Shown in pieces: positions 9,472-37,744 of a stretch of 64,000 nt of DNA. Below the pieces are notes generated by a model. It saw nothing but the letters and a program-made list of their open reading frames with translations. It had not been told where the DNA came from and did no database searches. Every line of letters begins with the position of its first letter. Position 1 is the first letter of the stretch. A program made the position numbers and the translations under genes. The stretch covers positions 62,001 through 126,000 of the forward strand of contig NZ_JABBKX010000009.1 in NCBI RefSeq assembly GCF_012927745.1, read 5' to 3'. This DNA comes from Neoroseomonas marina. Lineage in GTDB: Bacteria; Pseudomonadota; Alphaproteobacteria; Acetobacterales; Acetobacteraceae.

Positions 9472-10815
9472 ATGAGCAGCCCGAAGCAGATCAGCCTCGG
9501 CCTTTCCATGCGCTACCTGGGCTACCACGCGGCCGCCTGGCGGCACCCTTCGGCGGATCCGGACGCGGCGTCGAAGTTCAGCCACTACCGCTACATCGCG
9601 CAGACGGCCGAAGCCGCGAAGATGGACATGGTCTTCCTCGCCGACGGGATCGGGCTGCGGACCAAGGACGAACCGCCGGGCGCGCTCTGCCGTTCGCACC
9701 AGACGCTGGAACTCGAGCCGCTGACGCTCCTCTCCGCCCTCTCGGCGGTGACGTCGCATATCGGCCTCGTCTCGACGGCGTCCACGACCTACAACGAGCC
9801 CTATCACATCGCGCGCAAATGGGCTTCGCTGGATCACCTCAGCGGCGGTCGCGCCGGCTGGAATATCGTGACTTCCTGGTCGGATGCCGAGGCGCGCAAC
9901 TTCAATCGCGACAAGCACATGGACTACGACCTGCGCTACGAACGCGCGGCCGAGTTCGTGGAGGTCGTGAAAGGCCTATGGGATTCCTGGGAGGAGGACG
10001 CGCCGCTGTTCGACAAGGCGAGCGGCATCTTCTTCGACCAGTCGAAGCTCCATGCGCTGAACCATGACGGCAAGCACTTCAAGGTGAAGGGCCCGCTGAC
10101 GATCAAGCGCACGCCGCAGGGGCGGCCCATACTGGTACAGGCCGGGGCCGCGGAGCAGGGTCTCGAGATCGCCGCACGCAGCGCGGACGTCGTCTACGCC
10201 GCGCCGCTCGATCTCGAATCCGCCAAGGCCTACTATGCCAACCTGAAGGGGCGCCTCGCCAAGTACGGACGATCGCGCGACAGCCTCAAGATCATGCCAG
10301 GCGTGACGATCTTCGTCGGCCGCACGCGAGAGGAAGCGCGCGAGAAGTTCGATCTTCTGAACAGCTTGGTCGAACCACAACTGGGGCTCTCCTACCTCTA
10401 CGGCCAGATGGGCGACCTCTCGGCCTATCCGATCGATGGTCCGGTGCCCGAGCCCGAGAACCCCGTCGTGAAGAGCATGACGAAAAACCTGCTCGCCCTG
10501 GCGCGGCGCGAGAACCTCACCATCCGGCAACTCTACACCACCATCGCGGCGGGTTTCGGCGGCCGCATCCTGGTCGGAACGCCGAAGGATATCGTCGACG
10601 ACATGCAGGCCTGGGTCGAAGCGGATGCGGCGGATGGCTTCAACCTCTGCCCGCCGGTCCTGCCGCTCGGCCTCGATGAGTTCGTCGAGCTGGTTCTGCC
10701 GGAGCTTCGGGCCCGCGGCATGTTCCGCACGGAGTATGCCGGGTCGACGCTGCGGGAGAATCTCGGGCTGACACCACCCGTGAACCGCTACGTCGGACGG
10801 GTTGCCGTCGCCTGA
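9472..10815 (+). CDS. LLM-class flavin-dependent monooxygenase, NtaA/SnaA/DszA type
   Basis: This 447-aa protein is a full-length FMNH2-dependent monooxygenase and a close paralogue of 872-2227. Shared segments include FLADGIGLR, STASTTYNEPYHIAR, GGRAGWNIVTSWS, NLTIRQLY and STLRENLGL. It sits directly downstream of the importer operon, on the same strand, separated by a strong hairpin. The order LysR, Dpp-type importer, NtaA-like monooxygenase recalls the aminopolycarboxylate (EDTA/NTA) degradation loci, but substrate assignment by analogy is weak. No flavin reductase gene is visible in the window, so reduced flavin must come from elsewhere. Confidence 0.93.
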   Translation: MSSPKQISLGLSMRYLGYHAAAWRHPSADPDAASKFSHYRYIAQTAEAAKMDMVFLADGIGLRTKDEPPGALCRSHQTLELEPLTLLSALSAVTSHIGLVSTASTTYNEPYHIARKWASLDHLSGGRAGWNIVTSWSDAEARNFNRDKHMDYDLRYERAAEFVEVVKGLWDSWEEDAPLFDKASGIFFDQSKLHALNHDGKHFKVKGPLTIKRTPQGRPILVQAGAAEQGLEIAARSADVVYAAPLDLESAKAYYANLKGRLAKYGRSRDSLKIMPGVTIFVGRTREEAREKFDLLNSLVEPQLGLSYLYGQMGDLSAYPIDGPVPEPENPVVKSMTKNLLALARRENLTIRQLYTTIAAGFGGRILVGTPKDIVDDMQAWVEADAADGFNLCPPVLPLGLDEFVELVLPELRARGMFRTEYAGSTLRENLGLTPPVNRYVGRVAVA

Positions 10816-23676: not shown

Positions 23677-26637
23677 TCAGGTGCCCGTCGCCTCCATCTC
23701 GCTGGCCTCGATGCCATCGAGCACGCTCTGCAACGCCGGCAGGAACTGCAGGGCTTCGACCTTTCGAGCGACCGCCATGCCCTCGAGGACAGCCGCCACG
23801 GCCTCGGCCCGCCGGCCCATCGCCAGGCGCGCCCGCGCGAGCAGCAGCAGCAACAGCGGGCGCAGCAATTCGCCCTGGGTGCGCCGGTAGGCCTCGAGCC
23901 CTTCTTCCATCAGCGCGTGGCCAGCCTCGTAATCGCCGACCCGCACCCGCTCGGCGCCACGCGAGACGCTGCTCATCGCCGTCCAGTAGGCGATGCCGCG
24001 TGACGTCGCGATATCGTAGACCTCCTCGGCGAGACGGGCGGCTTCGGCGTGATCGCCCGCCGCGGCATGCACATGCCCAGCGAGCTGGAAGGCGTAGCAT
24101 TGCAGGATCGCGTTGCCGGATTTCCGCGCCGCCGTCTCCGCGGCGCGGGCAATCGGCCGCGCCTTGTCCGGGCCATCGGTGTCCAGCACGAGCCAGGCAA
24201 GGTTCGACAGCGCCGTGACGAAGGGGTCCTGGCTGAGCACGACCGCCCGGTCGCGTTCGGCCGGCTGGCCCGCGAGGCGGATCGCCGCGGTGAGGTGACG
24301 CCGCGCCGCATCGACTTCCCCCATGCAGAACAGGCACCACCCGGCCCGCCGATGCGCGTCGGCGCGCGCGAGGGCATCGCCATGCTCCCGCGTCAGCGTC
24401 AGCAGGCGGTAGACGAGCCTGCGCGCCACTGAAAGCGGGCCTCGGACCTGGTAGAAACCGATGATGCCGGGGAGCAGCGACAGCAGGCCCGCCTGGTCGG
24501 CCATTCCCTCCGCGATCTCGTAGGCGCGGTCGAAGGCCTCCTGCACCGCGGCGGAAGCGTAGCCGAGCGTTTCGATCAGCACGTAGCCGCGCAGCAGCCA
24601 GACGCGCAGCTCGGCGCCGCTGCGCGCTTCGCCCTGCAACTGCCGCGTCAGCGCCGCCGCCCGCGCCAGCAGGTTCTCCGCTTCGAGATGCGCGTTGTTG
24701 CTCAGCGCCATCTCGGCGGCCCGGTCGATCAGCGGCAGGGCCTCGGCCGGCATGTCGCCGAGCTCGAAATGCCGCGCCAGCGCCTCGGGATGACGTTCGC
24801 GGATCTCGGGCCGCAACTGCAGCAGCACCTGCGCGGCACGCCGGTGCAGCGCCGGCCGCCGCGCATGGAGCATCGACTCGTAGGCGGCTTCCTGGAGCAG
24901 CATGTGGCGGAAGGAGAAGCCGCTGCTGTCCCGCTCATTGCCGACGACGACGATGTCGGCGTCGATCATGCGGCGGATGCCGTCCTCGGCGGCGTCGGGA
25001 CCGAGGTCGCACATCGCCGCGAGGGCATCGAGATCGAAGGCGCGCCCCAGCACCGCCGCACGCTGGGCGAGATCCTTCGCGTCTCCGAGCGCGTCGAGGC
25101 GCGCGATCAGCAACTGCTGGAGCGTCGGCGGGAGGGCGGGAACCTCGGCCGCCAGCGCGAATTCCTCGAGGAAGAACGGCACCCCCTCGCTGCGCATCAG
25201 GATGGTCTCGCGCATGCCCATGCTCATCTGGGGCACGAGATGGTTCACCAGCAGGCACGCCTCCTGTGCCTGCAGCCGGCGCAGCGTGGTGCGCAGGACG
25301 TTCGTCCGATCCGGCCAGGCGAGCGCGAAATCGTTGCGATACGTCGCGACGAGCAGGATCGGCAGGGAGGCGATGGTGTCGGCCAGGACCCGGAGGAACT
25401 CCAGCAGGCTCGCATCGGCCCATTGCAGGTCCTCGACCCGGACGATCGCGGGCCGGTCCCGTGCATAGGAGGCGATCCAGGCGAGAAGAATCTCGCGCAA
25501 GGCCCGCCGGCGCTCGAAGGGTGTCAGGCTTCCGGTGCCGGGACCTGCATCCTCCGGCGGCCCGCTCGTATCCGCTCCGGCCAGCGCCTTGGACAGGATG
25601 CCGAGATAGGGATCGAGGCCGAGACCGAGCGCCCCCAGGAAGTCTTCTGCCGCGCCTCCGGTCTCCCGGCCCGACCGCGCGACATCGTTCCGCAGCGCTT
25701 CGAGCGCGGGAAGCAATGGGCTGAGCTTGGCCTGCGGCACGCAGGCCATCGTCAGCACCTGCTCTGCAGGCACCTGATCCCGGGCGAGAAACTCGTCCAG
25801 CAGCCGCGTCTTCCCGATCCCCGGCTCTCCGCTGACCAGGACGATCTGCCCCCGCCCGTCACGTGTCTGGGCCCAGCGGGCGCTGAGGTCGGACAACTCG
25901 CGGTCGCGGCCGACCAGCGGCGCCGCTCGGCCGCGACCGCGACGCAGCGCCGCCTTCACGATGTAGCCGTTGGGCAGGTTCAGAACCGTTCCGTCCGGCA
26001 GCGGGCTCGCACTGAATTCGCTGCCGACGATGGCATGGGTCGCAACGCCGATGACGACCCCGTTGGGTGGCGCGCGGTGCTGCAGGTGGGCGGCATCGTT
26101 CGGCGCCGTCCCGATCAGCGCGTCGATCTCGGTCGCCGCGCCGGGGCCGAGCCGGCCGGCCACCACCATCCCGGACTCGATCCCGATCCGGATACGGAGG
26201 AGGAAGGGTTCGACGCCGCGGCGCGCATTGGTCGCATTCAGCCGTTCGTTGAGCGAGGGCATCTCGGCCGCGATGGCGAGGCCGCAGCTGACCGCCGACT
26301 GGGCGTCGCGCCCGCGCGCATGGGGGTAGCCGAAGCAGGCGAGGATGCCGTCCCCGACATACCGCGCCACGTGCCCGCCATGACGCAGGATGATGGCGGC
26401 ACAGACCTCTCGGTAGGCCAGCAGGACCGTGGCGAAGGCCTCCGGGTCCATCGAGGCGGTGAGCGCCGTCGATCCCACGATGTCGCAGAACATGACCGTG
26501 ACGATGCGACGGTCCGCTTCGGCGTCGGGTACGGGACTTCGCGCCGCCGGGTTCGGGTGGACCCGCAGCGCTTCACCGCAATCCGGGCAGAAGCGGGCCT
26601 TGGGAGGCGTCCGCGAGCCGCAGCTGATGCAATACAT
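23677..26637 (-). CDS. Zinc-ribbon / class III nucleotide cyclase / AAA ATPase / TPR regulator
   Basis: This 986-aa protein begins with a zinc ribbon (Cys3, 6, 17, 20). A class III cyclase domain follows (about residues 43-225) with both metal Asp residues, D52 in FCDIVGST and D96 in RYVGDGILACFG. The usual N-x3-R catalytic motif reads N180-D-A-A-H184, so the transition-state Arg is His. An AAA/STAND ATPase comes next (Walker A GEPGIGKT, 270-277; Walker B-like VEDLQWADA), then a long helical TPR-like C-terminus. Such proteins are signalling regulators, and cyclase activity here is uncertain. It is divergent from the radical SAM operon, with a perfect TGTGA-N6-TCACA site between them. No membrane segment is evident. 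Confidence 0.9.
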   Translation of the reverse strand: MYCISCGSRTPPKARFCPDCGEALRVHPNPAARSPVPDAEADRRIVTVMFCDIVGSTALTASMDPEAFATVLLAYREVCAAIILRHGGHVARYVGDGILACFGYPHARGRDAQSAVSCGLAIAAEMPSLNERLNATNARRGVEPFLLRIRIGIESGMVVAGRLGPGAATEIDALIGTAPNDAAHLQHRAPPNGVVIGVATHAIVGSEFSASPLPDGTVLNLPNGYIVKAALRRGRGRAAPLVGRDRELSDLSARWAQTRDGRGQIVLVSGEPGIGKTRLLDEFLARDQVPAEQVLTMACVPQAKLSPLLPALEALRNDVARSGRETGGAAEDFLGALGLGLDPYLGILSKALAGADTSGPPEDAGPGTGSLTPFERRRALREILLAWIASYARDRPAIVRVEDLQWADASLLEFLRVLADTIASLPILLVATYRNDFALAWPDRTNVLRTTLRRLQAQEACLLVNHLVPQMSMGMRETILMRSEGVPFFLEEFALAAEVPALPPTLQQLLIARLDALGDAKDLAQRAAVLGRAFDLDALAAMCDLGPDAAEDGIRRMIDADIVVVGNERDSSGFSFRHMLLQEAAYESMLHARRPALHRRAAQVLLQLRPEIRERHPEALARHFELGDMPAEALPLIDRAAEMALSNNAHLEAENLLARAAALTRQLQGEARSGAELRVWLLRGYVLIETLGYASAAVQEAFDRAYEIAEGMADQAGLLSLLPGIIGFYQVRGPLSVARRLVYRLLTLTREHGDALARADAHRRAGWCLFCMGEVDAARRHLTAAIRLAGQPAERDRAVVLSQDPFVTALSNLAWLVLDTDGPDKARPIARAAETAARKSGNAILQCYAFQLAGHVHAAAGDHAEAARLAEEVYDIATSRGIAYWTAMSSVSRGAERVRVGDYEAGHALMEEGLEAYRRTQGELLRPLLLLLLARARLAMGRRAEAVAAVLEGMAVARKVEALQFLPALQSVLDGIEASEMEATGT

Positions 26638-26662: not shown

Positions 26663-26682
26663 TGTGAGAGAAATCACAGCAC
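26663..26682. promoter_or_regulatory. CRP/FNR-type site (TGTGA-N6-TCACA) between cyclase and radical SAM genes
   Basis: GCTGTGA (26663-26669), a 6-nt spacer and TCACAGC (26676-26682) form a perfect palindrome matching the CRP consensus TGTGA-N6-TCACA. It lies in the 157-bp divergent region, 26 bp from the cyclase-regulator start and about 113 bp from the radical SAM start. CRP recognition is known for this motif; action here is inferred. Confidence 0.6.
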
Positions 26683-26794: not shown

Positions 26795-27799
26795 GTGAAC
26801 CCCCGACTGACTTCGCCTCCCAAGGTAGCCATCTCGATCACGGGGGCCTGCCCCCTGTCGTGCCGGCATTGCTATGGCGACTGCGGGCATGCGCCGCAGG
26901 ACTCCGAACTCGGCATCGAGGAATGGCGCACCGCCATCCGGCAGCTCGCGTCCGATGGCGTGATCAGCCTGCACATCGAAGGCGGCGAGCCGCTGCTCAA
27001 GCCGGGCTTCCTCGGTCTCCTCGGCGAGGCGTCGCAGTCCATGTTCACCATGCTGCGCACCCACGGCACGCTGATCGATGCCGCCATGGCCCGCGCACTG
27101 CGTGACAATGGGGTGGGCCGGGTGCTGGTCGACGTGATGGGGTCGACGGCCGAGACGCATGAATGGTTCACGCAGGTGCCAGGCAGCTTCGCCGCCTCGC
27201 TCGACGCGGTCCGCCATCTCGTCGATTGCGGCATACCTACCGACGTCCTGGTCATCCTGACGCGGCAGAACGCGCCGGAGATCCAAGGCATCCTCGATCT
27301 CGCGGCGCGCCTCGGCGCCGAGCGGGTCGGCGTCCTGCGGCTCTACCCGCTGGGTCGGGCGAAGCGGATCTGGTCGACCATCGCCCTTCCCCTCGCCGAT
27401 CAGATGCGGACCATCGCGGAGCTTCGACCGCCCGAAGGGCTCGGCCTGATGCAGTCATGGCATCCGAACAACCACAATTGCTGCTGGCAGTCCGCGGCGG
27501 TGATCGCGAATGGCGACATCGTCGGCTGCCCCTACCTCCGCGAGGACGTCAACCACGGCAACCTGCGCGAGACGACGCTGCAGCAGGCCTGGGAGACCGC
27601 ACGGCTCTGGCGGACCCTTCGCGCCGGCGCCGTGGAGCAGAGCTGCCCCGATTGCAGCGCGAGCGAAGGCAGCCACGGCGGCTGCCGCGCCACCGCCTAT
27701 GCCTGGCACGGCCGGTGGACCGCGCCGGACCCGTTTGATCCGATCCTCAACGACGGTGTCGATGTCAGCCTTCTCCCCGACCGACTGCTTCCGGCTTGA
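26795..27799 (+). CDS. Radical SAM / SPASM-type peptide or protein maturase
   Basis: This 334-aa enzyme has the canonical CX3CX2C motif binding the SAM-cleaving 4Fe-4S cluster (Cys19, Cys23, Cys26 in GACPLSCRHCYGDC) and the GGEP motif (HIEGGEPLLKPGF). A C-terminal SPASM-like cysteine set follows (Cys229, 230, 245, 284, 287, 297, ending GGCRATAYAWHG) that would hold auxiliary cluster(s). SPASM enzymes typically modify ribosomal peptides or enzyme side chains. I chose the GTG at 26795, directly before the first beta-strand; an in-frame GTG at 26735 is possible. The 3' end overlaps the PqqD-like gene by 38 nt, linking it to a peptide chaperone. Confidence 0.92.
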   Translation: MNPRLTSPPKVAISITGACPLSCRHCYGDCGHAPQDSELGIEEWRTAIRQLASDGVISLHIEGGEPLLKPGFLGLLGEASQSMFTMLRTHGTLIDAAMARALRDNGVGRVLVDVMGSTAETHEWFTQVPGSFAASLDAVRHLVDCGIPTDVLVILTRQNAPEIQGILDLAARLGAERVGVLRLYPLGRAKRIWSTIALPLADQMRTIAELRPPEGLGLMQSWHPNNHNCCWQSAAVIANGDIVGCPYLREDVNHGNLRETTLQQAWETARLWRTLRAGAVEQSCPDCSASEGSHGGCRATAYAWHGRWTAPDPFDPILNDGVDVSLLPDRLLPA

Positions 27800-28073
27800 G
27801 CCGGGCGTCCGGCTGCGGCCGGTGCCGGAGCTCGGCCATTGCCTTGCCTACACGCCGGCGCGCCCGGCGCTGCACCGGCTGAACCCGTCGGCGTGGCTGC
27901 TCGCGGAACTGGCGGATGGTGGCTCCTTCGAGGCCATCGCGACGGAGTACGGCCACGCCGTTGCCGAGCTCGGCGGCCAAGCGGACCTGCCGGACGTGGC
28001 GGCCGGGCTGGCCAGCCTCATCGACCTTGGAATTGTCGGGCGCGTCGACACGCATGGGAAGGAAGGAGTTTGA
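27762..28073 (+). CDS. PqqD-like peptide-binding chaperone (RRE-type)
   Basis: This 103-aa protein shows the PqqD pattern: FRLEPGVRLRPVPELGHCLAY, then LHRLNPSAWLLAELADGGSFEAIATEYG and a C-terminal helical part ending LIDLGIVGRV. PqqD-type domains bind the leader region of a ribosomal peptide and present it to a partner radical SAM enzyme. It overlaps the radical SAM gene by 38 nt and stops 1 nt before the ATG of the 235-aa gene, so all three are tightly coupled. The other parts of a PQQ pathway are absent, so PQQ synthesis is unlikely. Confidence 0.85.
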   Translation: MSAFSPTDCFRLEPGVRLRPVPELGHCLAYTPARPALHRLNPSAWLLAELADGGSFEAIATEYGHAVAELGGQADLPDVAAGLASLIDLGIVGRVDTHGKEGV

Positions 28074-28074
28074 G

Positions 28075-28782
28075 ATGCAAGACATGACCGGAAAGGGGCA
28101 GGCGCGCCTGCTGCTGCGTCAGTTCGGGCTGTCCGGCGCGGCTGCGCCGCGCGCCGCCCGCACCACGCCCGTCGTCCGCACGCCGGGCACGATCCCGCAC
28201 GACAAGGCGACGCCGATGGCGGCGTGGGTCGACAAGGACGCCATCAAGAACGAATTCGGCCTCTATCACGAATGGCGCTTCCAGCTGCCGCAGAAGACCG
28301 GCGCCAACGAGCATGCGAAGGCGCTGCTGACCTGGCTGCGGGCACCCGCCGGGCTTCAGGCCGACCTCAAGCTGCCGCCCCCGACCGGCGGCGCGTCCTA
28401 TGTCACGGCCGGCGGCCAGGGCGGCGACTTCGTGAGCAACGAAGCCCTCATGGCGCATTTCTTCCAGACCCAGGCCACGACGGTGCCCTGCTTCTACCTC
28501 GGCACCTTTATCGCGGCCTTCGTCGCCGACGCGATCGAGTTCCGCAGCCTGTTCGTCTTCGCCAGCGGCAATACGCCACAGGCCTGCATGGACAGCTGGA
28601 CCGCGGGCCTTGCCACGCTGCCGCAGAGCAACCCGTACAAGGCGGTGCTCAAGACCTTCTGGAGCATGATCGCCGCCGCCGCGCCGCAGCTCAGCTGGAT
28701 GATGCTGGGGCAAACCCTGGCCGACGCCAACTTCACCGACGACGTGCTGAAAGCGCCGGCAAACCCGATCGCCGCGCTCTAG
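28075..28782 (+). CDS. Unrecognised 235-aa protein of the radical SAM cluster (candidate modification substrate)
   Basis: I do not recognise this family. The start is well supported: AAGGAG lies six nucleotides before the ATG, the best ribosome binding site in the cluster, consistent with high expression. The first 45 residues are rich in Ala, Pro, Arg and Thr and look disordered, with QARLLLRQFGLSG as a possible amphipathic leader-like segment. The remainder looks folded, with aromatic stretches (FGLYHEWRFQL, HFFQTQATTVPCFYLGTF), Cys139 and Cys171, and Gly-Gly pairs near residues 105-117. Its place between the PqqD-like and peptidase genes makes it the best candidate for the modified protein, but it could equally be an accessory factor. 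It has no signal peptide. Confidence 0.75.
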   Translation: MQDMTGKGQARLLLRQFGLSGAAAPRAARTTPVVRTPGTIPHDKATPMAAWVDKDAIKNEFGLYHEWRFQLPQKTGANEHAKALLTWLRAPAGLQADLKLPPPTGGASYVTAGGQGGDFVSNEALMAHFFQTQATTVPCFYLGTFIAAFVADAIEFRSLFVFASGNTPQACMDSWTAGLATLPQSNPYKAVLKTFWSMIAAAAPQLSWMMLGQTLADANFTDDVLKAPANPIAAL

Positions 28783-28792
28783 CCCCAGCGGC

Positions 28793-31700
28793 ATGACGCC
28801 CAAGCCGCGACGTGACGAGGCGGTCGGCGCCTGGGCGCGCGCCGACCTCCGGCCCCTTCGCGCGACGCTGATCGCCACGCTCGCCGCGATGGGTGAGGAC
28901 TCACCCGACCGGCACGTGGCCATCCACGCGGCGGGCGATCGCGACGAGTGCGACATGCTGCTCGACTTCGACGGGCATGTCGCGGACCTCGAAGCCCTGC
29001 GCGAGGACGGTGCCCCGGTGCTGCGCGTGGTGACGCAGGTCGGCAGCCTGTTCGCCGCCCGCATCCGGACCGGCTACCTGCTGCGCCAGCTGGACGAGCT
29101 GGAGCGCTGGAACGACGCCGGCGCCCCGCCTCCCGACAAGGCGTCCGGCGACAGCCTGGCCGGCCTGGTCGCCGCGGGCGCGATCCGTCGCGCCTCGCTC
29201 GGACGGGGTGCACGGCTTGCGGGCGATGGCGCCCGTGGCGGCCAGGACGCGCGCATTCCGCCGCGGCGCGCCGCCCGGGCCGAGGATGCCCCGCTGGGCG
29301 CGGGGGTCACGCTCGGTATCGTCGACACGGTCTTCGACTACGCCCATGTGACGATGCTGCCCTTCGGCCAGACCCTCGAGGCCCCGCCCCCGCCCAACCC
29401 GGACCTCCGGATCGGCCTGCTCTTCGATCCCTACGCCACGCAGCAGGGGGTGGCGCGCTTCGGCGCCAGCTACGATACCCAGGCGCTGGCCCAGGATCTG
29501 GCGGCGTGCCTCGGCGCGCAGGACGACCGGCCGCTGAGCCTCGCGCAGCGGGACGCCGCGGCAGGCGGCGACACGGAAGCGACGCGCCGCCAGCTTTTCG
29601 CGCAGCATGGCACCTTCACCGCCGGGATCGCGGGGGGCAGCGGCAATGCCTCCGTGGAGGGCCGTTACCGGGGGATCGCACCGGCCGCGCGCCTGGCCTT
29701 CGCGATCGCCGGCATCCAGGACAATGCCGTGCTTGCCGACAGCCTGGATGTGCTGGCCGCCGTCAACCGCCTGGTCGAGGACAGCGGGACGCCACTCGCC
29801 CTTCTTCTCAACAACGGCGATTGCCTGGGCGCCCATGACGGAACGCTGCTGGGCGAGTTGCTGCTCGATGAGCTGCTGCTGCATCCCGGCCGCGCCATCG
29901 TATTGCCGGCGGGCAACCAGAACGCCGGCAACACGGAGCTGATCGGCGCGGGAAAGACCCGCATCGCGCCCCATCTCGCGATCGCCGGCAGCGTTACCCA
30001 ACCGCGCACGGAACGCATCGGCTTCACCTACACCACGCGTGCCAGCAAGGCCGACACGATCGAGATCTGGTTCCAGGCGTCCGGGATGCCCACGGCGTCC
30101 ATCACGATGGAGCCCGGCGGCCCACCGATCGAACCGCTGTCCGGCCACGAGGGACGGCCCATGCGCGTGCTGTCCCTGCTGGGCGGCGACGCGCGGATGG
30201 TGCTGATCGTCGAACTGGGCCCGGGTGCCGAGCCGAACCTCTGGCGGCTGCGCGTCTCGATGCTGCCGGTGCGCGGCCCGATGCCGGTCGACAGGATCCG
30301 CTTCGAGCTCACCCGTGTCATCGGCGAGGTCCATGCCTGGTGCGACTGGAACAACGCCACCCAGCGCGACTGGACCGAACCGGCGACCGGCAGGCAGGAC
30401 GACGTGACGACGCTGACCACCCCGGCGACGGCGCACCGTGTCATCGTCGCAGGCGAATGCGCCGACGGCCCCATAGGCTTCCAGCCCGCCGAACCGAGCG
30501 GGCGCGGTCCGACGCGCGACGGACGCCTGAAACCGGACGTCGTGGCCCTCGGCGCGGCGCTCGCCGCCCCCGTGCCGCAACGCTCGCCGATGGCGCACCG
30601 CAACCTGGCGGCGGCTTTCGCGGCCAAGCCGGAACAGCTTGAGCGCTTTGCCTACGCGACGACGCCGGGCGGCACGAGCTTCTCGGCCCCCCAGGTCGCC
30701 GGGCTCGCAGCCTTGCTGTTCGAGAAGTGGCCCGACGCGACCTGGGCCGATATCCGCCAGGCCATGGTGGAAGCCGCGCTCCGCCCCGAGCAGTGGAAGC
30801 CGAGCGGCGCAGGCCAGGTGGTCGAGTTCCCCGGCGCGCAGGATGATCCTCCCGAAGCCGGGCTGCGGACCTTCGGATGGGATCGCGCCCTCGGCTACGG
30901 CCGCATCGACGTCGGCCGGACGCTCGCCCCGCCCCCGCCCACCTTCGACGTCTTCCTGCGCAAGTCCGCGGATGATGACGGGCGGGAGCCCTACGCGGCC
31001 GCGACCCTGTGGTCATCGCCCGACATCGTGGTGACCGGCCCGCATCGCCTGAGCGTCGGCACGGCGCAGCGCGGGCAACGACCGGTCGACGGCCCCGCCC
31101 GGCTGTTCCTGTTCCATGCGCCCTTCGGGGCGTTGCATCCCTTGCCGCGGATCGATGGCATCCCGGTACCGGACTCGCCGTGGCAATCCCTGCTCACGTC
31201 CGGAAGCGGCGGGACCGGATCGGTCGTCGTGACGGCGGGCGATGTCGTCACGGTCGAGACGCGCGCGGATGTCGACCTCATGGACGGGACGGCCCGGTCG
31301 ATCCTGGCCGTCCTCGACCATGATCAGGATCCCTACGAGCTGTCGGCGACGCTCGGCATGCGCAACAACGTCGCCGCCGTCAGCGTCAGTGTCGCCCCCC
31401 TGTCCGACGGCGCCGTCACCGGCATGCCGCCGGTCACGATCCTCGGCACCGACGACGTGGACAGCCTGTCCCTCTGGACGGAGAACCTGGACGCGCGACT
31501 GGAGGTGTCTGGCATCCCGGTGACGGCCCTGCCATGGCGCACCATGCGGCTTTTCCTGGGCGACGGGCGGCTGCGGTCCTGGACGCGGCCCTACTTCGGA
31601 CAACGGGACGCCGCGACGCAGGACCCGGCCAACTGGTTGGCCGAGGCGAGCGACGCCGGCGCCTCGCCCGACGCTGCGACCGGCATCGCCCGTCTGACCG

Positions 31701-31960
31701 GCGTGGTCGGCGCGGCCCGTCTCGCCCTGCATCCGCGGGACGCGGATGGGTTCCGGCGGCTGGACATCTCCGCCGCCCAGGACCGCCTGTGGATACCGCG
31801 CCTCCGCCTGGCGCAGGGACAGCCGCTGATGCTGCAGGTCCGCCTGAACGATGCGCATCTGCGCGATGCCGGTCGGCCCGGTTGGGTGCATATGGGGCAT
31901 TTCTCCGGCGGCCGGCGCGTCGGGGGTGCCAGCATGCGTATCGTTCCGCTTCCCGGCTAG
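28793..31960 (+). CDS. Large S8 (subtilisin-type) serine peptidase
   Basis: This 1055-aa protein carries a subtilase catalytic domain with the triad Asp178 (LGIVDT), His272 (AQHGTFTAGIAGG) and Ser629 (GGTSFSAPQVAG), plus oxyanion Asn375 (LPAGNQN). About 200 residues between Asn375 and the Ser motif form an insertion that looks like a beta-rich domain. Some 350 residues follow the catalytic core and have no recognised domain. The N-terminal 165 residues may be a propeptide or docking region. No signal peptide is visible, so it may act in the cytoplasm. It begins 10 nt after the 235-aa gene and could process that protein or a hidden substrate after radical SAM modification; this is inference. 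Confidence 0.9.
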   Translation: MTPKPRRDEAVGAWARADLRPLRATLIATLAAMGEDSPDRHVAIHAAGDRDECDMLLDFDGHVADLEALREDGAPVLRVVTQVGSLFAARIRTGYLLRQLDELERWNDAGAPPPDKASGDSLAGLVAAGAIRRASLGRGARLAGDGARGGQDARIPPRRAARAEDAPLGAGVTLGIVDTVFDYAHVTMLPFGQTLEAPPPPNPDLRIGLLFDPYATQQGVARFGASYDTQALAQDLAACLGAQDDRPLSLAQRDAAAGGDTEATRRQLFAQHGTFTAGIAGGSGNASVEGRYRGIAPAARLAFAIAGIQDNAVLADSLDVLAAVNRLVEDSGTPLALLLNNGDCLGAHDGTLLGELLLDELLLHPGRAIVLPAGNQNAGNTELIGAGKTRIAPHLAIAGSVTQPRTERIGFTYTTRASKADTIEIWFQASGMPTASITMEPGGPPIEPLSGHEGRPMRVLSLLGGDARMVLIVELGPGAEPNLWRLRVSMLPVRGPMPVDRIRFELTRVIGEVHAWCDWNNATQRDWTEPATGRQDDVTTLTTPATAHRVIVAGECADGPIGFQPAEPSGRGPTRDGRLKPDVVALGAALAAPVPQRSPMAHRNLAAAFAAKPEQLERFAYATTPGGTSFSAPQVAGLAALLFEKWPDATWADIRQAMVEAALRPEQWKPSGAGQVVEFPGAQDDPPEAGLRTFGWDRALGYGRIDVGRTLAPPPPTFDVFLRKSADDDGREPYAAATLWSSPDIVVTGPHRLSVGTAQRGQRPVDGPARLFLFHAPFGALHPLPRIDGIPVPDSPWQSLLTSGSGGTGSVVVTAGDVVTVETRADVDLMDGTARSILAVLDHDQDPYELSATLGMRNNVAAVSVSVAPLSDGAVTGMPPVTILGTDDVDSLSLWTENLDARLEVSGIPVTALPWRTMRLFLGDGRLRSWTRPYFGQRDAATQDPANWLAEASDAGASPDAATGIARLTGVVGAARLALHPRDADGFRRLDISAAQDRLWIPRLRLAQGQPLMLQVRLNDAHLRDAGRPGWVHMGHFSGGRRVGGASMRIVPLPG

Positions 31961-32075
31961 GACGAGGCGCGGAGGTGAGACGCATCGAAGCACCCCGGGC
32001 CTCCCTACGCACGATCGCGTGCGGCCCGCATCCGTCCGTCGCGCACCGGTCCTCCCTGTGCGGAGCCATGGCGCG

Positions 32076-32573
32076 ATGACCGACGGCTTCTTCGAGATCG
32101 GCGGGGAAGTGGCGTTCGACGCGCTGGCGCGCGCGCTTGGTGCTGCATTGTGCGAGATCTGCTCCGCCCCCACCATCGCCGTGGACGCCGAAGCGACGGA
32201 CGAGGGCGCGATCAAGGCGGCGCTCGAGGAAGCCTGGCACTCCGAACGGCCGTTCAGGTTCCTGATCCGCGGGCTGAACGACGCACGCCCGTTCGAGGTG
32301 CTCGAGCCCGTTTTCTTCGTGTGCCACGAGGCCGGCGCGACCTGCCGCGTGATCGTGGATGGACCGCAGGGCCGGCAGGCGGCCTATGCCAAGGCTGGAG
32401 GCACGATGCTCTGGATCGCCTTCCTCCTCACCGCGACGGGCGAGGTCCGGTATGGCCCCAACTCGACCCACCGCGCGCTGCAGGACGGCGTCGTGCCCAG
32501 CGTGTCCGACTGGGTCGACGCGGCCCAGGCCCTCGGCGAGGACCTGCCGCCGGTGATCCCGGCCCGGGCCTGA
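32076..32573 (+). CDS. Unrecognised 165-aa protein downstream of the S8 peptidase
   Basis: I do not recognise this family. The protein is acidic, with an N-terminal helical part (FDALARALGAALCEICS), a central segment with PVFFVCHEAGATCRVIVDG and a hydrophobic stretch GGTMLWIAFLLTATGEVRYG that could be a buried strand-helix unit rather than a membrane helix. It has four cysteines. It lies 115 nt after the peptidase stop on the same strand and is followed by a small hairpin with TTTT, so it probably closes the radical SAM operon. Confidence 0.7.
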   Translation: MTDGFFEIGGEVAFDALARALGAALCEICSAPTIAVDAEATDEGAIKAALEEAWHSERPFRFLIRGLNDARPFEVLEPVFFVCHEAGATCRVIVDGPQGRQAAYAKAGGTMLWIAFLLTATGEVRYGPNSTHRALQDGVVPSVSDWVDAAQALGEDLPPVIPARA

Positions 32574-32585
32574 GCCACAGCTGCC

Positions 32586-32604
32586 GCGGCCCGGGCCGCC
32601 TTTT
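32586..32604 (+). terminator. Short GC hairpin with T4 tail at the end of the radical SAM cluster
   Basis: GCGGC (32586-32590) pairs with GCCGC (32595-32599) around CCGG, followed by CTTTT. It lies 13 nt after the 165-aa gene's stop and abuts the convergent RND pump gene. The stem is short, so efficiency is uncertain. Confidence 0.4.
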
Positions 32605-35600
32605 CAGTCGGCGCCGAGCTGCGGCGCCACTGGCTGACCCGCACGGGACGCCCGTCGCCGCGCCAGCGCGCGGGCCACGATGTAGAAGACGGGCGTGAAC
32701 ACCAGGCCGAACACCGTCACGCCCAGCATCCCGTAGAAGACCGCGACACCGAGGCTCTGGCGCATTTCCGCGCCGGCGCCCGTCGCGATCGTCAGCGGCA
32801 ACACGCCGAGGATGAAGGCGAGGCTCGTCATCAGGATCGGACGCAGGCGCGTGCGTGCCGCCGCGACGGCCGCCTCCCAGCGGGTCATGCCCTCCTCTTC
32901 CGCCGCGCGCGCGAACTCCACGATCAGGATGGCGTTCTTCGCCGCCAGCCCGACGAGAACCACGAGCCCGACCTGCACCAGCACGTTGTTGTCGAGGCCG
33001 GCATGGCGCACGCCCAGCAGCGCCGCGAGCACCGACATCGGCGCAATCAGCACGATGGCGAGCGGCAACAGCCAGCTCTCGTACATCGCCGCCAGCACGA
33101 GGAAGACGAACACGACCGCGAGGCCGAAGGCGATGGGGGCCGTGTTGCCCACCAGCTTCTCCTGCAGCGCGATCTCCGTCCATTCGTAGCCGAAGCCCTC
33201 GGGGAGGTTCTCGGCCAGCACGCGTTCCATGATGGCGATCGCCTGGCCGGTCGAGATGCCCGGCGCCGCGGCGCCCTGCAACTCGACGGCGGGGAACAGG
33301 TTGTAGCGCGGCATCCGGTAGGGGCCGGACGTCTCATGGAATGTGGCGAGGCTGCCCAGCGGCACCATGGCACCGCCATCGCTGCGCGTGCGCAGCCGGG
33401 CGATGTCCTCGATGCCGGTGCGGTAGGGCGCATCCGCCTGCGCCGTGACGCGCCAGGTGCGCCCGAGCAGGTTGAAGTCGTTCACGAAGGCGGAGCCGAG
33501 GTACACGCCCATCGCCTCGTGCACCCGGCTGATCGGCACGCCGAGCATCTCGGCCCGGGAGCGATCGATATCGGTGCGGATCTGCGGCGTCGCGGTGTTG
33601 AACAGGCTGAACGCGAAGGCGATGCCCGGCGTCTGGTTGGCCGAGGCCATCACCGCATGCAGGGCGGCTTCCATCTCGCGCGGGCCGCGCCCGGCACGAT
33701 CCTGGATCATCAGCTTGAAGCCACCGCCCGTGCCGATGCCGGGCACCGAGGGCGGCGCCAGGACGAACACCATGGCATCCGGGTCGCCCATCAGGCGCCC
33801 CTGCAGGTCGGCGAGGATCCCGCCCATGGTCAGGTGCTGCGCGGCCCGGTCCTCGAACGGCTTCAGCGTCGCGAAGACCACGCCGGCATTCGGCGCGTTG
33901 GTGAAGGTTGCACCGTCGAAACCGACGAAGGCGACCGCGCTCTCGACCCCCGGCGTCGCCAGGATGGCGTCCGACGCCCGCCGGATCACGGCATCCGTCC
34001 GCGACAGATTGGCGCCCGGCGGCAGCTGGAAGGCCGCGATGAAGTAGCCGCGGTCGAGCGGGGGGATCAGCCCGGTCGGCGTCGAGGTGACGGTCCACCC
34101 CGTCGCGGCCAGCAGGCCGCCATAGACCAGCATGAGCAGCACCGGGATGCGGATCAGCCGGCGCGTGACCGCTCCGTAGCCGATCGACAGCCGATCAAAG
34201 AGACGATTGAAGCCACGGGCAAACGCCCCGAACGGACGCAGCAGCAGCGGCCGGGGACCGTGGTCGTGCCCGTGCGGCTTCAGCAGGATCGCCGCGAGCG
34301 CGGGCGACAGCGTGAGCGACACCAGCGCGGACAGCAGCGTCGCGACCGAGATCGTCACCGCGAACTGCTTGTAGAAGGTGCCGGAGATGCCCGTGATCAG
34401 CGCCGTCGGCACGAAGACGGCGACCAGCACCAGGGCGATGGCGATCAGCGCGAAGCCGACCTCGTCCATGGTCCGTCGCGCCGCCTCCAGGGGCGACAGG
34501 CCGGCCGTCATGTGCCGCTCGGCATTCTCGACCACCACGATGGCGTCGTCGACCACGATGCCAATGGCCAGGATCAGGCCGAACATGGTCAGCGTGTTCA
34601 GCGTGAAGCCGAGCATCAGCAGGATGGCGAAGGTGCCGACGATGGACACCGGGATGGCGAGCAGCGGGATCACCGCCGCCCGCCAATTCTGCAGGAACAG
34701 GATGACGACCAGCACGACGAGGACGATGGCTTCGGCGAAGGTGTGCAGGACCGCTTCCATGCTCTGCGCGATGAAGCGAGTCGGGTCGTAGACGATGCTG
34801 TAGCCGATGCCCGGCGGAAAGGATCGTGCGGCTTCCTCCATGGTCGTCCGCACGGCGGCGGCGGTCTGCAGCGCGTTGCTGCCCGGACGCTGGAACACGC
34901 CGATCGCCGTGGCGAGGCGGTTGTTCAGCAGCGCGTTCACCGTGTAGTCGGCCGCACCGATCTCGATCCGCGCGACGTCGCGCAGCCGGAGCGGAGCTCC
35001 GTGCTCGCCGGTCGCGATGATCTGCTCGCCGAAGGCTTCCGGCGTGGCCAGCCGGCCCTGGGTGAGGACCGAGAGCTCGAAGGCGCCGGCGGCGTCGGTG
35101 CGCGGGGCCTGGCCGAGCGCGCCCGCGGCCACCTGGACGTTGGCCCGGCGGAGCGCGTCGACCACCTCGCCCGCGGTCAGCCCGCGCGCCGAGATCCGGT
35201 CGGGGTCGAGCCACACCCGCATCGCATAGTCGCGCGCGCCGAAGACCTGCGCGTCACCGACACCGTCGATGCGCGCCAGCCGATCCTTGATGTTCAGCGT
35301 CGCGTAGTTGGAGATGTACTCGTGGTCGCGGCTGCCGTCCGGCGAGGTGACGTGCACCACCATCAGGAAGTCCGGCGACGCCTTGCGCACCGTGATGCCG
35401 AGGCGCCGGACCTCTTCTGGCAGGCGGGGCTCCGCCACGGCCACGCGATTCTGCACCAGCACCTGCGCCTGGTCGGCATCCACGCCCTGACGGAACACCA
35501 CCGTGACCGTGAGCCGCCCGTCGCCGGTCGACTGCGACGACACGTAGAGCATGCCGTCGACCCCGTTGACCTCCTGCTCGATCGGGCCCGCCACCGTTTC

Positions 35601-35780
35601 GGCGATGGTCTCGGCCGAGGCGCCCGGATAGGCCGCGGTGATGGTCACGCTGGGCGGGGCGATCTCCGGATACTCCGAGATCGGAAGGCGGAACGCGGCA
35701 ATCGCGCCGACCAGCGTGATAGCGATGGAGATCACCGCCGCGAAGACGGGCCGGTCGATGAAGAAGCGAGCGAGGCGCAT
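32604..35780 (-). CDS. RND multidrug efflux pump, inner-membrane subunit (AcrB/MexB, HAE1 type)
   Basis: This 1058-aa protein has full HAE1 length, with the N-terminal helix (ARFFIDRPVFAAVISIAITLVGAIAAFRLPISEYPEIAPPSV), two large periplasmic loops and twelve expected membrane helices. The proton-relay pair GIVVDDAIVVVEN is present in the fourth helix. It exports drugs or toxic compounds by proton antiport with a periplasmic adaptor and an outer-membrane channel. The adaptor gene lies upstream on the same strand (71-nt gap). No outer-membrane factor gene is in the window, so the pump probably uses one encoded elsewhere. Confidence 0.96.
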   Translation of the reverse strand: MRLARFFIDRPVFAAVISIAITLVGAIAAFRLPISEYPEIAPPSVTITAAYPGASAETIAETVAGPIEQEVNGVDGMLYVSSQSTGDGRLTVTVVFRQGVDADQAQVLVQNRVAVAEPRLPEEVRRLGITVRKASPDFLMVVHVTSPDGSRDHEYISNYATLNIKDRLARIDGVGDAQVFGARDYAMRVWLDPDRISARGLTAGEVVDALRRANVQVAAGALGQAPRTDAAGAFELSVLTQGRLATPEAFGEQIIATGEHGAPLRLRDVARIEIGAADYTVNALLNNRLATAIGVFQRPGSNALQTAAAVRTTMEEAARSFPPGIGYSIVYDPTRFIAQSMEAVLHTFAEAIVLVVLVVILFLQNWRAAVIPLLAIPVSIVGTFAILLMLGFTLNTLTMFGLILAIGIVVDDAIVVVENAERHMTAGLSPLEAARRTMDEVGFALIAIALVLVAVFVPTALITGISGTFYKQFAVTISVATLLSALVSLTLSPALAAILLKPHGHDHGPRPLLLRPFGAFARGFNRLFDRLSIGYGAVTRRLIRIPVLLMLVYGGLLAATGWTVTSTPTGLIPPLDRGYFIAAFQLPPGANLSRTDAVIRRASDAILATPGVESAVAFVGFDGATFTNAPNAGVVFATLKPFEDRAAQHLTMGGILADLQGRLMGDPDAMVFVLAPPSVPGIGTGGGFKLMIQDRAGRGPREMEAALHAVMASANQTPGIAFAFSLFNTATPQIRTDIDRSRAEMLGVPISRVHEAMGVYLGSAFVNDFNLLGRTWRVTAQADAPYRTGIEDIARLRTRSDGGAMVPLGSLATFHETSGPYRMPRYNLFPAVELQGAAAPGISTGQAIAIMERVLAENLPEGFGYEWTEIALQEKLVGNTAPIAFGLAVVFVFLVLAAMYESWLLPLAIVLIAPMSVLAALLGVRHAGLDNNVLVQVGLVVLVGLAAKNAILIVEFARAAEEEGMTRWEAAVAAARTRLRPILMTSLAFILGVLPLTIATGAGAEMRQSLGVAVFYGMLGVTVFGLVFTPVFYIVARALARRRASRAGQPVAPQLGAD

Positions 35781-35851
35781 CTGGGCGAGCCTTCGGCGTC
35801 ACCGCGCGGCGGCGCGCGGTCGGGTTTGCGGGAACTGAAGGACGGTCTGGG

Positions 35852-37027
35852 CTAGTCGGCCGCCGCGAGCGGGCTTGGCCCGATGCGCCCCTGCTCGGCC
35901 GTCACGCGGGAGCCCGGCCGGGCGCGATGCAGGCCACCGATGATGACCCGGTCATCCGGCGCGAGCCCGCTGCGTACCACCCGCAGCCCGTCGGCCAGCG
36001 GACCCAGTCGCACCTGGCGCGGCGTGACGGTGCCGTCGGCGGCGACCGTCAGCACCATGCGCCCGGCCTGGTCGGCCATCACCGCCGCGTCCGGCACCAG
36101 CAAGGCGGGCGCCTGGCCGGACGACAGCCGCAGGCGGGCGAAGCTGCCGGGCGTCAGGAACATGTCCGCATTCGCCACCACCGCCCGGGCCCGAATGGTG
36201 CCGCTGCGCGGATCGAAGACGCTGTCGACGAAGTCGACATGGCCCTCGCGGGAGAACTCGGGCTCGTCCAGCAGGCGGAGCTGCACGGGAAGGCGACCGT
36301 CGCGCAGCCCGCCCTGGGCCGCGCGCGCCTGGCGGAGATACTCCGCCTCGCTCGCGTCGAAGGTGATGTAGACGGGGTCGAGCGCGACCAGCGTCGTCAG
36401 CAGCGTCTGTCCGGCCTGCACCAGGTTCCCGGCATCGACGCGCCGGTCGCTGATGCGGCCGGACCGCGGAGCGCGGATCTCCGTGAAATCCAGATCGAGG
36501 GCCGCCTGGCGCTCCGCGGCACGCGCCGCAGCCAGGCCGGCCTGCGCCTCGCGCAGCGCCGCACGGCGCGAATCGAGCTCCGCCTGCGGCGCGATGCGAC
36601 TTGCCGCGAGGGGCTCGTAGCGCGCGACCTGCTGCTCGGCGAGCAGCAGCCGCGCCTCGTTGCGCGCGACTTCGGCCCGCGCGGTCTCGAGGGCGATGCG
36701 GAACGGCCGCTGGTCGATGGTAAAGAGCAGGTCGCCGGCGCGGACCAGCGCGCCGTCGGTGAAATGCACCGCGTCCACCTGCCCGGACACCCGGGCGCGC
36801 AGTTCCACCCGCGCGGAGGGTTCGACCCGCCCCGTATGTTCCTGCCATTCCGTCACCGCGCGGGCCAGTGGCGCGGCCACGGTGACGGGCGGTGGCGCCG
36901 GCTGGGCCAGGGCGACCGGCGCCACAGCGGTCAGCGCGGCACCCATGGCAGCGCCCTGCACGCGGGCCAGCCATGTCGTCCAGAGGCTCGCAGCCTGCTC
37001 AGGGACCTTGCGCATGTGGGAGGCCAC
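35852..37027 (-). CDS. RND efflux periplasmic adaptor subunit (AcrA/MexA type)
   Basis: This 391-aa adaptor has an N-terminal export region (GAAMGAALTAVAPVALAQPAPP), a split barrel-sandwich hybrid domain (VELRARVSGQVDAVHFTDGALVRAGDLLFTIDQRPF and FTEIRAPRSGRISDRRVDAGNLVQAGQ), an alpha-hairpin rich in Ala/Arg/Glu between them, and a beta-barrel. The GTG at 37027 has GGAG seven nucleotides upstream and is preferred over the ATG at 37015. It is the first gene of the pump operon, divergent from the TetR gene across 120 bp that contain a paired operator-like sequence. Confidence 0.94.
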   Translation of the reverse strand: MASHMRKVPEQAASLWTTWLARVQGAAMGAALTAVAPVALAQPAPPPVTVAAPLARAVTEWQEHTGRVEPSARVELRARVSGQVDAVHFTDGALVRAGDLLFTIDQRPFRIALETARAEVARNEARLLLAEQQVARYEPLAASRIAPQAELDSRRAALREAQAGLAAARAAERQAALDLDFTEIRAPRSGRISDRRVDAGNLVQAGQTLLTTLVALDPVYITFDASEAEYLRQARAAQGGLRDGRLPVQLRLLDEPEFSREGHVDFVDSVFDPRSGTIRARAVVANADMFLTPGSFARLRLSSGQAPALLVPDAAVMADQAGRMVLTVAADGTVTPRQVRLGPLADGLRVVRSGLAPDDRVIIGGLHRARPGSRVTAEQGRIGPSPLAAAD

Positions 37028-37046
37028 GGCCTATCTCCAGAGATGT

Positions 37047-37091
37047 TACCGACCGGTTCGTCTCATCGTTACGTAGAGTGACCGGTCGGTA
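37047..37091. promoter_or_regulatory. Paired TetR-type operator between pump operon and tetR gene
   Basis: TACCGACCGGT (37047-37057) and ACCGGTCGGTA (37081-37091) are perfect 11-bp inverted copies separated by 23 nt. Each arm itself contains the palindrome ACCGGT, so the two arms may be separate sites. The position, within the divergent promoter region of a TetR gene and its likely target, fits a repressor operator. Confidence 0.7.
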
Positions 37092-37147
37092 TCATCAAGT
37101 GACTTTTTTGTGCGACGCAACGATTGTGCAGAGGAGGTCGGTCACCG

Positions 37148-37744
37148 ATGCCCAGCGACGTCAGTGCCAAGCCCCGGGCCGCCGAGCGGATCCAGGAAGC
37201 CGCGCGTGGACTGTTCGAACGCCAGGGCATTCGCGCGACCGGCGTGGAGGAGGTCTGTCGCGTCGCCGGCGCGACGAAGATGAGCCTCTACCGCGCCTAC
37301 CCCAGCAAGGACGCTCTCGTCGCTGCAATTCTTGCGGAGGACGCGGCGGAACATGAGGCCTGGGTCGAGGAATCGCTGGCCGCCGCGAAGGATGCGGAGG
37401 GCCGGCTGCGGGCGCTGATCGAGGCCACCGCGGTCGAGGTCGCCGAGCCCGGCGTCTGCGGCTGTCCCATGCTGCTCGCGCAGGCGGAATTCCGCGATCC
37501 GTGTCATCCTACGCACAAGGTGGTGGTCGACTTCAAGCAGGGCTGCCGGGACCGCATCCGCACCCTCGCCGTGGAGGCCGGCGCCGGTGATCCCGACGCG
37601 TTGGCCGACGAGCTCGCGCTCGTCATCGAAGGGGCGATCGCCGCCCGAAGCTACCTCGGCGAGGCGCGCGCCGCCGAGGCCCTGCGCCGCTGCGGCGCGG
37701 CGCTGATCGGCGCCGCGCTCCCGCATCGCGCGGCCCGGCGGTAG
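37148..37744 (+). CDS. TetR-family transcriptional regulator
   Basis: This 198-aa regulator has the N-terminal HTH (RIQEAARGLFERQGIRATGVEEVCRVAGATKMSLYRAYPSKDALV) typical of TetR proteins and a helical ligand-binding C-terminal domain with Cys-containing segments (GVCGCPMLLAQAEF). The ATG at 37148 is preceded by GAGGAGG; the frame could open at 37124. It is divergent from the RND pump operon and most likely represses it, released by a pump substrate. The paired 11-bp sites at 37047-37091 are the likely operators. Confidence 0.93.
   Translation: MPSDVSAKPRAAERIQEAARGLFERQGIRATGVEEVCRVAGATKMSLYRAYPSKDALVAAILAEDAAEHEAWVEESLAAAKDAEGRLRALIEATAVEVAEPGVCGCPMLLAQAEFRDPCHPTHKVVVDFKQGCRDRIRTLAVEAGAGDPDALADELALVIEGAIAARSYLGEARAAEALRRCGAALIGAALPHRAARR

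Follow-up and report, generated by a model that had tools for sequence, protein, structure and literature searches.

What does a radical SAM enzyme modify when the genes around it encode a PqqD-like peptide chaperone and a peptidase, with no short precursor peptide in sight? The question is raised by positions 26795-32573 of a 64-kb stretch of Neoroseomonas marina DNA (the window, to which all positions refer unless a related locus is named), where a preliminary description recognized five co-directional, tightly spaced genes for a SPASM radical SAM enzyme, a PqqD-like protein, a 235-amino-acid (235-aa) protein, a 1055-aa subtilase of the S8 family and a 165-aa protein. The reading that we favor, with moderate confidence, is a radical-SAM maturation cassette whose substrate is the 235-aa protein, in which a precursor peptide is joined to a carrier domain. 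That protein is likely the substrate because the N-terminus of its family is encoded as a free short open reading frame (ORF) in actinomycete relatives of the locus; the suggestion that it might be the modified product was already made in the preliminary description, and is upheld here by this inference.

ORF calls confirmed the five co-directional ORFs, all on the plus strand. The enzyme (334 aa, 26795-27799) has a GTG start and an intact CxxxCxxC motif, and the ATG of the 103-aa PqqD-like protein (27762-28073), a candidate RiPP (ribosomally synthesized and post-translationally modified peptide) recognition element (RRE), lies inside the 3' end of its gene. The 235-aa protein (28075-28782), preceded by what appears by inspection to be a good ribosome-binding sequence (GGAAGGAG), takes the place of a short free precursor, none of which was recognized in the window's operon. 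It is followed by the S8 subtilase (28793-31960), a proposed processing peptidase that, judged by eye alone, lacks a signal peptide. The fifth gene, the 165-aa ORF (32076-32573), begins after a gap of 115 bp. Neither the 235-aa nor the 165-aa protein has any Pfam match above cut-off.

Relatives of the enzyme at 50-51% identity occur in two of 398 genomes of the phylum besides the window's own (E ≤1e-40), and an alignment of the three enzymes served as query for a scan of a genome collection of 84,980 species. The scan yielded 33 loci, 28 of which (L017-L044; L-numbers denote related loci) belong to the enzyme family at 42-81% identity. The nearest relative (81%) is from Neoroseomonas eburnea, and the hosts include Roseomonas, Siccirubricoccus, Elioraea, Reyranella, Bradyrhizobium, Variovorax, Streptomyces and Amycolatopsis. 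The remaining five rows (L045-L049, 27-31% identity) fall outside this family and were excluded. The enzyme is present in 12 of 200 genomes of the window's taxonomic family (E ≤1e-90, window's own included), a sample in which two other Neoroseomonas genomes yielded no match at that threshold, and in four of 249 genomes sampled around a Streptomyces genome, that genome included. A single plasmid record of 72,556 carries it (E ≤1e-30), from Microvirga ossetica. After removal of duplicate rows (L078-L083, which repeat L044, L027, L033, L029, L038 and L037, and L013-L015, which coincide with L023 and L016), the comparison covered 39 loci, 33 of them proteobacterial and six actinomycete, with L070-L072 drawn from the Streptomyces sample. 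One of the 39, L042, comes from a metagenome-assembled genome labelled Nitrosovibrio, and its Acetobacteraceae-like copy (54% identical to the window's) may reflect a binning error.

Across the 39 loci the conserved core consists of the radical SAM/SPASM enzyme, the PqqD-like protein and a third ORF, which is the 235-aa protein in the window and a short free peptide in actinomycetes. This core spans alpha- and betaproteobacteria, with enzyme identities of 49-81% among the proteobacterial loci of the collection scan. The neighborhood survey of radical SAM homologues proposed in the preliminary description gave a divided answer. A PqqD-like ORF is present in 37 of 39 loci (it was not found in L042 and L072, both contigs that end beside the core), and a third ORF of 169-235 aa directly follows it in 32 of 32 assessable proteobacterial loci, L042 being cut off; the S8 and 165-aa genes do not co-occur with the enzyme in this way. 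An S8 gene was not found in 15 of the 33 proteobacterial loci, three of which are truncated contigs (L036, L037, L042), and neither the other 38 loci nor 149 other genomes of the family yielded a homologue of the 165-aa protein. A fixed five-gene unit is accordingly rejected, the 165-aa gene being an orphan and the S8 gene not universal. The borders shift as well: the conserved neighborhood excludes the 165-aa gene and takes in a divergent cyclase-AAA-TPR gene (23677-26637, minus strand) that had been omitted. On a tree of 37 enzymes, built without the partial L036 and L042, seven changes explain seven gene-content groups, against a minimum of six and an average of 21.6 in shuffles; L031, badly trimmed in this tree (37% of columns, end branch 10), served only to show how peptidase types scatter.

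The third ORFs are poorly conserved in sequence and collinear in plan. The window protein is 74% identical to that of L017, with which it shares an identical run of 22 residues (AAPRAARTTPVVRTPGTIPHDK), and 14-25% identical to the 23 other members of an alignment of 25 third ORFs (A2, in which row L029 starts two residues early). All have an N-terminal helix, then a [VIL]-R-[ST] motif, then aromatic-rich strands and a G-T that is invariant in A2. All 38 sequences (32 proteobacterial third ORFs and six actinomycete short ORFs) have the motif, with an invariant Arg, within residues 26-35; as a control, it occurs at residues 19-45 in 34 of 493 called genes of at least 100 aa, some of these being third ORFs themselves. 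In the window the precursor-like segment (residues 1-45) corresponds to 28075-28209, with V-R-T codons at 28174-28182. An aromatic residue follows the motif in many branches, and the window and Elioraea branches read V-R-T-x-G-[TS]-I-P at this point. Across the 25 third ORFs, Cys occupies no column that is fully or almost fully conserved.

Membership of the window protein in this family is supported by a profile of the 23 third ORFs from which the window pair (the window protein and that of L017) had been left out: among 7069 ORFs, L017 (E 3.6e-4) and the window (E 0.0056) ranked 24th and 25th, right behind the training members. AlphaFold2 models of the window protein and one relative place an N-terminal helix and a disordered motif (pLDDT, the predicted local distance difference test score, <50 over residues 18-61 of the window model) before a b-a-b-b-a-b arrangement. 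Residues 62-215 (28258-28719, plus strand) are predicted to form a ferredoxin-like dimeric alpha/beta-barrel resembling NIPSNAP and antibiotic-biosynthesis-monooxygenase barrels. No Pfam family covers the third ORF: when the 25 were compared with Pfam, three families matched any member at E ≤1, none of them a barrel family.

The 235-aa protein had no match in the 72,556 plasmid records, and none in 199 other genomes of the taxonomic family by a sequence search blind to relatives at such distance, to judge by the 11 of the 199 that carry the enzyme and a diverged third ORF at the locus. Seven weak matches, besides the window itself, in 385 genomes of the class were rejected as noise, all being partial with E from 6e-4 to 0.01. 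In the window's own genome, the third-ORF profile found one true match and one at E 0.28, with no second copy above noise.

All six actinomycete loci contain a free ORF of 51-58 aa near the enzyme gene (in L072 it precedes that gene), and no barrel-type third ORF was seen in any of the six. The peptide of L070, MEREELLGRLKSKLRETSFDAPAVETVQPEIRSAAQYALMPSMRAGFRIDDEADDTAN, may be compared with the N-terminus of the L077 third ORF, MKAENDLERLKARMRAGAALAAPEVREIRPEIRSAGLWHI. Four peptide types were aligned with 30 third-ORF N-termini by the Smith-Waterman method, with 1000 shuffles. The best of 30 partners gave z 10.8 for L070-L077, 7.1 for L071-L077, 6.7 for L039-L034 and 6.4 for L072-L033, and in each case none of 1000 shuffles scored as high. 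The window N-terminus reached z 4.5 with the L071 peptide, again with no shuffle of 1000 as high. Judged by these scores, the tie of the 235-aa protein itself to the free peptides is weaker than that of its relatives. A further gene before the radical SAM gene of L070 (8158-9240 on the reverse complement of that locus) encodes an HExxH protein (HECVH).

The assignment of the first gene as a SPASM radical SAM enzyme is borne out by matches above cut-off to PF04055 (67.6 bits, 2e-18) and to the SPASM family PF13186 (30.2 bits, 5.7e-7). The enzyme-family profile finds PqqE (6c8v, 9.5e-30) as its top match among solved structures. Among NCBIfam models, none of the 25 best of 69 matches attains its cut-off, and the enzyme falls far under the equivalog cut-offs for PqqE (TIGR02109, 112 of 381.35 bits) and mycofactocin (TIGR03962, 116.5 of 265 bits). 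CxxxCxxC is kept in 34 of 39 enzymes; in L072 it reads CxxxxCxxC, L036 is truncated at this point, and L039-L041, which read PTKRTNLDS.MAY instead in their N-terminal part (about 9800-10050 in those loci), lack the cysteines and on this pattern are probably pseudo-radical-SAM proteins. Each of the L039-L041 clusters has a B12-type radical SAM gene (the L039 copy is TIGR03975-like, below cut-off), and the homologues of L070 and L071 retain the cluster cysteines. The window's genome also holds a second radical SAM gene (L003, G000:C12:223124-224101), which is 28% identical and falls outside this family.

For the PqqD-like protein, the earlier assignment is weak on the window sequence taken alone, with 14.0 bits to PF05402 against a cut-off of 23.4; relatives at the same position pass, L027 with 24.4 bits and L039 with 26.7. 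In all, ten proteins at this position were scanned, of which these two pass, six (the window's included) are sub-threshold and two have no match. The window protein is similar to the set found at the same position in other loci.

The subtilase was correctly recognized: PF00082 matches at 1e-20, and the Asp, His, Asn and Ser catalytic motifs were matched by pattern. Its place in the cassette varies. Among the 18 proteobacterial loci with an S8 gene it lies downstream of the core in five (the window, L017, L073, L075 and L076) and upstream in 13, and the two arrangements fall on different branches of the enzyme tree. Reyranella L018 has an M4-type metallopeptidase instead (PF02868, 35.4 bits against a cut-off of 24.4), and Variovorax L019 encodes a 266-aa HEVGH protein, a putative zinc peptidase that has no significant Pfam match. 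L020 (11269-13938, two tandem ORFs) and L043 (2148-3275) share an uncharacterized 332-aa protein family after the third ORF, where others have a peptidase; the L043 copy has no Pfam match. In seven Bradyrhizobium-type loci and the Microvirga locus no peptidase was recognized in the flanks, which were not scanned exhaustively. On this distribution the peptidase is best read as an exchangeable accessory. In L073 (10441-13970) the S8 reading extends over two overlapping ORFs, a broken gene or a sequencing error. No S8 homologue was confirmed in viral contigs. Two Sinorhizobium plasmid S8 proteins are about 33% identical over a third of the protein and lie by conjugation, DUF6065 and amidohydrolase genes; no radical SAM gene is listed in the stretch shown, for which the gene table is incomplete.

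Of the 33 proteobacterial loci, 28 have the cyclase gene beside the core; none of the six actinomycete loci has it. In the other five proteobacterial loci (L022, L031, L036, L037, L042) the contig stops close to the core. As a rule the gene and the operon diverge, but in L019, L020 and L043 the two converge, and in L021 they point the same way. The 986-aa window protein combines a zinc ribbon with a class III cyclase domain, an AAA ATPase and TPR, with Pfam matches to AAA_16 (1.1e-20), Guanylate_cyc (3.4e-12) and TPR_12 (2.5e-9), zinc-ribbon matches below cut-off, and no kinase family in the list. Its cyclase domain carries IGTAPNDAAHLQ, in common with L017, as against forms like LGDTPNIASRLQ elsewhere (a pattern-based comparison in which several loci were unmatched); the residues that usually serve the substrate and transition state look changed.

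Within the 157-bp divergent intergenic region, a perfect TGTGA-N6-TCACA palindrome, which corresponds to the CRP consensus, lies at 26663-26678. It is the only match with at most one mismatch in the window. Shuffled windows average 0.57 such matches (43 of 100 hold at least one), so it is the place and perfection of the palindrome that count rather than its mere presence. The 39 loci contain 17 such sites, nine of them in promoter windows that make up 16.2 kb of 702 kb; in the remaining 30 loci no promoter window contains one. The resulting p of 3.8e-11 is too small, as the promoter windows were set after the site had been seen and L035/L038 and L020/L042/L043 are related loci. Ten CRP/FNR-type helix-turn-helix matches are present in the window's genome. 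By inspection, an apparent gene for a cyclic-nucleotide-binding, CRP-like regulator stands right behind the third ORF of L077 (10788-11573).

From these comparisons we infer the following sequence of events. The PqqD-like protein would bind the N-terminal segment of the 235-aa protein, which is disordered (a helix, then P-V-V-R-T), by analogy with discrete RRE proteins that are PqqD-like in structure and bind leaders (PMC7470986), and would present it to the radical SAM/SPASM enzyme. The enzyme would modify residues in or just past the [VIL]-R-[ST] motif, with the NIPSNAP-like barrel carrying or dimerizing the precursor where other systems would use a short peptide on its own. The S8 peptidase, presumably cytoplasmic, may then cut the modified segment much as the S8 enzyme QhpE cleaves, in the cytoplasm, the leader of QhpC after cross-linking by the radical SAM enzyme QhpD (PMC7876137). 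The divergent cyclase/AAA/TPR protein and the CRP-type site may control expression. As to function, we would suggest only tentatively a new class of radical-SAM-modified protein whose reactive peptide is kept on or delivered by the dimeric barrel under cyclic AMP (cAMP)/CRP-type control. The outcome would be a cofactor or signal that derives from the peptide and is borne by the protein, with the actinomycete clusters as the RiPP version of the same chemistry.

Several observations weigh against this scheme. The radical SAM homologue has lost its cluster cysteines in three of the six actinomycete loci. Peptides L039, L070 and L072 do not match the window N-terminus significantly (z 1.1, 0.4 and -0.9), and the median z over the 30 partners is 0.7, 2.7, 3.6 and 1.4 for the four peptide types. 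A profile of N-termini only has no actinomycete peptide among its 40 best matches, and one trained without the window pair does not show that pair among its 40 best; in hhalign the window pair aligned with the F3 core at a probability of 0.6% and E 0.1. A Foldseek search with the window model returned no match at a threshold of 0.001. The window and Elioraea branches lack the aromatic residue that follows the motif elsewhere, which means that either their chemistry is different or the motif is a recognition site rather than the modified site; if the aromatic is the target, the modified residue is not the same in all branches. Since the peptidase is not conserved, cleavage would not be general. 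Production of cAMP by the window cyclase is doubtful on its residue pattern, and the protein may be a catalytically dead nucleotide sensor. Finally, no exporter or consumer enzyme was recognized in the unit.

The fold of the 235-aa protein suggests a different role, as a partner enzyme or scaffold, with the radical SAM enzyme acting on a short precursor encoded elsewhere. The predicted barrel resembles families of which some members are enzymes, including small monooxygenases and cyclases, and precursors may lie apart from their maturases (PMC3023750). Against this stand the free actinomycete peptides, which share the N-terminal segment with the third-ORF family and occupy the gene position expected of a precursor, and the failure to find a second third-ORF copy above noise in the window's genome by a search that is blind to an unrelated precursor. 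The claim that there is no short precursor itself holds in the window as far as it was inspected and fails in the six actinomycete relatives, where a separate short ORF is present. We regard such a division of labor as unlikely.

The swapping of peptidase types (S8, M4-type, putative zinc peptidase) around a constant core, with an AAA/TPR protein adjoining, would also suit a regulated proteolysis or conflict system in which the modified barrel protein restrains the peptidase, the effector, and the cyclase/AAA protein acts as sensor; the S8 protein of L027 is weakly similar to the anti-phage peptidase IteS (E 0.0041, 15.4 bits of 900). However, eight of 33 loci (the seven Bradyrhizobium-type and one Microvirga) have the core and cyclase but lack an S8 gene, and a non-exhaustive scan of their flanks recognized no other peptidase. 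In addition, three actinomycete loci look biosynthetic, with the B12-type radical SAM gene and a major facilitator superfamily (MFS)-like gene, and we judge this reading quite improbable. The sub-threshold PqqD match in the window might even suggest a chance neighborhood of a PqqE-like enzyme with functionally unlinked genes, a view contradicted by the overlapping ORFs and by the recurrence of the same core over alpha- and betaproteobacteria at 49-81% enzyme identity, and one to which we give almost no credence.

The proposed maturation cassette with the 235-aa protein as substrate resembles several known systems. Like QhpC/QhpD/QhpE (PMC7876137), it would combine a radical SAM enzyme acting on a protein with an N-terminal leader and a cytoplasmic S8 peptidase that cuts the leader. 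It is unlike Qhp in having a separate PqqD-like protein, a barrel-domain substrate, varying peptidase types and an S8 protein short of the QhpE model NF049966 (the window's S8 is not listed at E ≤1, and that of L027 reaches E 0.0036 and 16.7 bits of 165). Moreover, the Cys residues of QhpC form Cys-Asp/Glu thioethers, whereas the 25 aligned third ORFs have no Cys in a conserved column. No qhp structural genes were recognized beside the core, with no model search aimed at them. The pyrroloquinoline quinone (PQQ; PqqA/D/E) and mycofactocin systems share with the cassette PqqE as the nearest solved relative, a discrete PqqD-like protein, tentatively assigned in the window's case, and, in the actinomycete branch, a short precursor; the [VIL]R[ST] motif, the proteobacterial barrel fusion and the sub-cut-off equivalog scores set it apart. 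By the model comparisons made, the cassette would work like PQQ or Qhp maturation and yet belong to neither. In the NHLP and Nif11 leader families (PMC3023750) the leader is related to a known protein (nitrile hydratase, Nif11) and the maturases vary; the cassette differs in the folded domain, a predicted NIPSNAP-like barrel, that follows the conserved segment. The cyclase-AAA-TPR part is related to the TOMM (thiazole/oxazole-modified microcin) kinase/cyclase fusion TIGR03903, by name from another peptide-modification system (4.3e-101); alignment to the profile begins at position 268, no match to a kinase domain was obtained, and 339.6 bits fall below the cut-off of 705.75. Radical SAM-SPASM clusters are mapped in PMC9062424, and a literature search, with most subscription papers outside it, found no title or abstract describing this gene set. 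The cassette is apparently undescribed.

If the favored reading holds, the locus defines a bounded and testable peptide-modifying family in which the enzyme, its peptide-binding partner and its substrate are named, and the likely site of modification comes down to a stretch of about 20 residues surrounding a single invariant arginine. Two natural substrate formats, a free peptide and a barrel-fused one, become available for comparison, and precursor searches limited to short ORFs could miss systems of this kind.

Directly after the cluster, at 32604-37741, lie genes for an RND efflux pump (1058 aa) and the membrane-fusion protein that belongs to it (391 aa), together with a TetR regulator gene in divergent orientation. 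None of the three clusters with the called genes of 28 compared loci, and the region is probably unrelated to the cassette.

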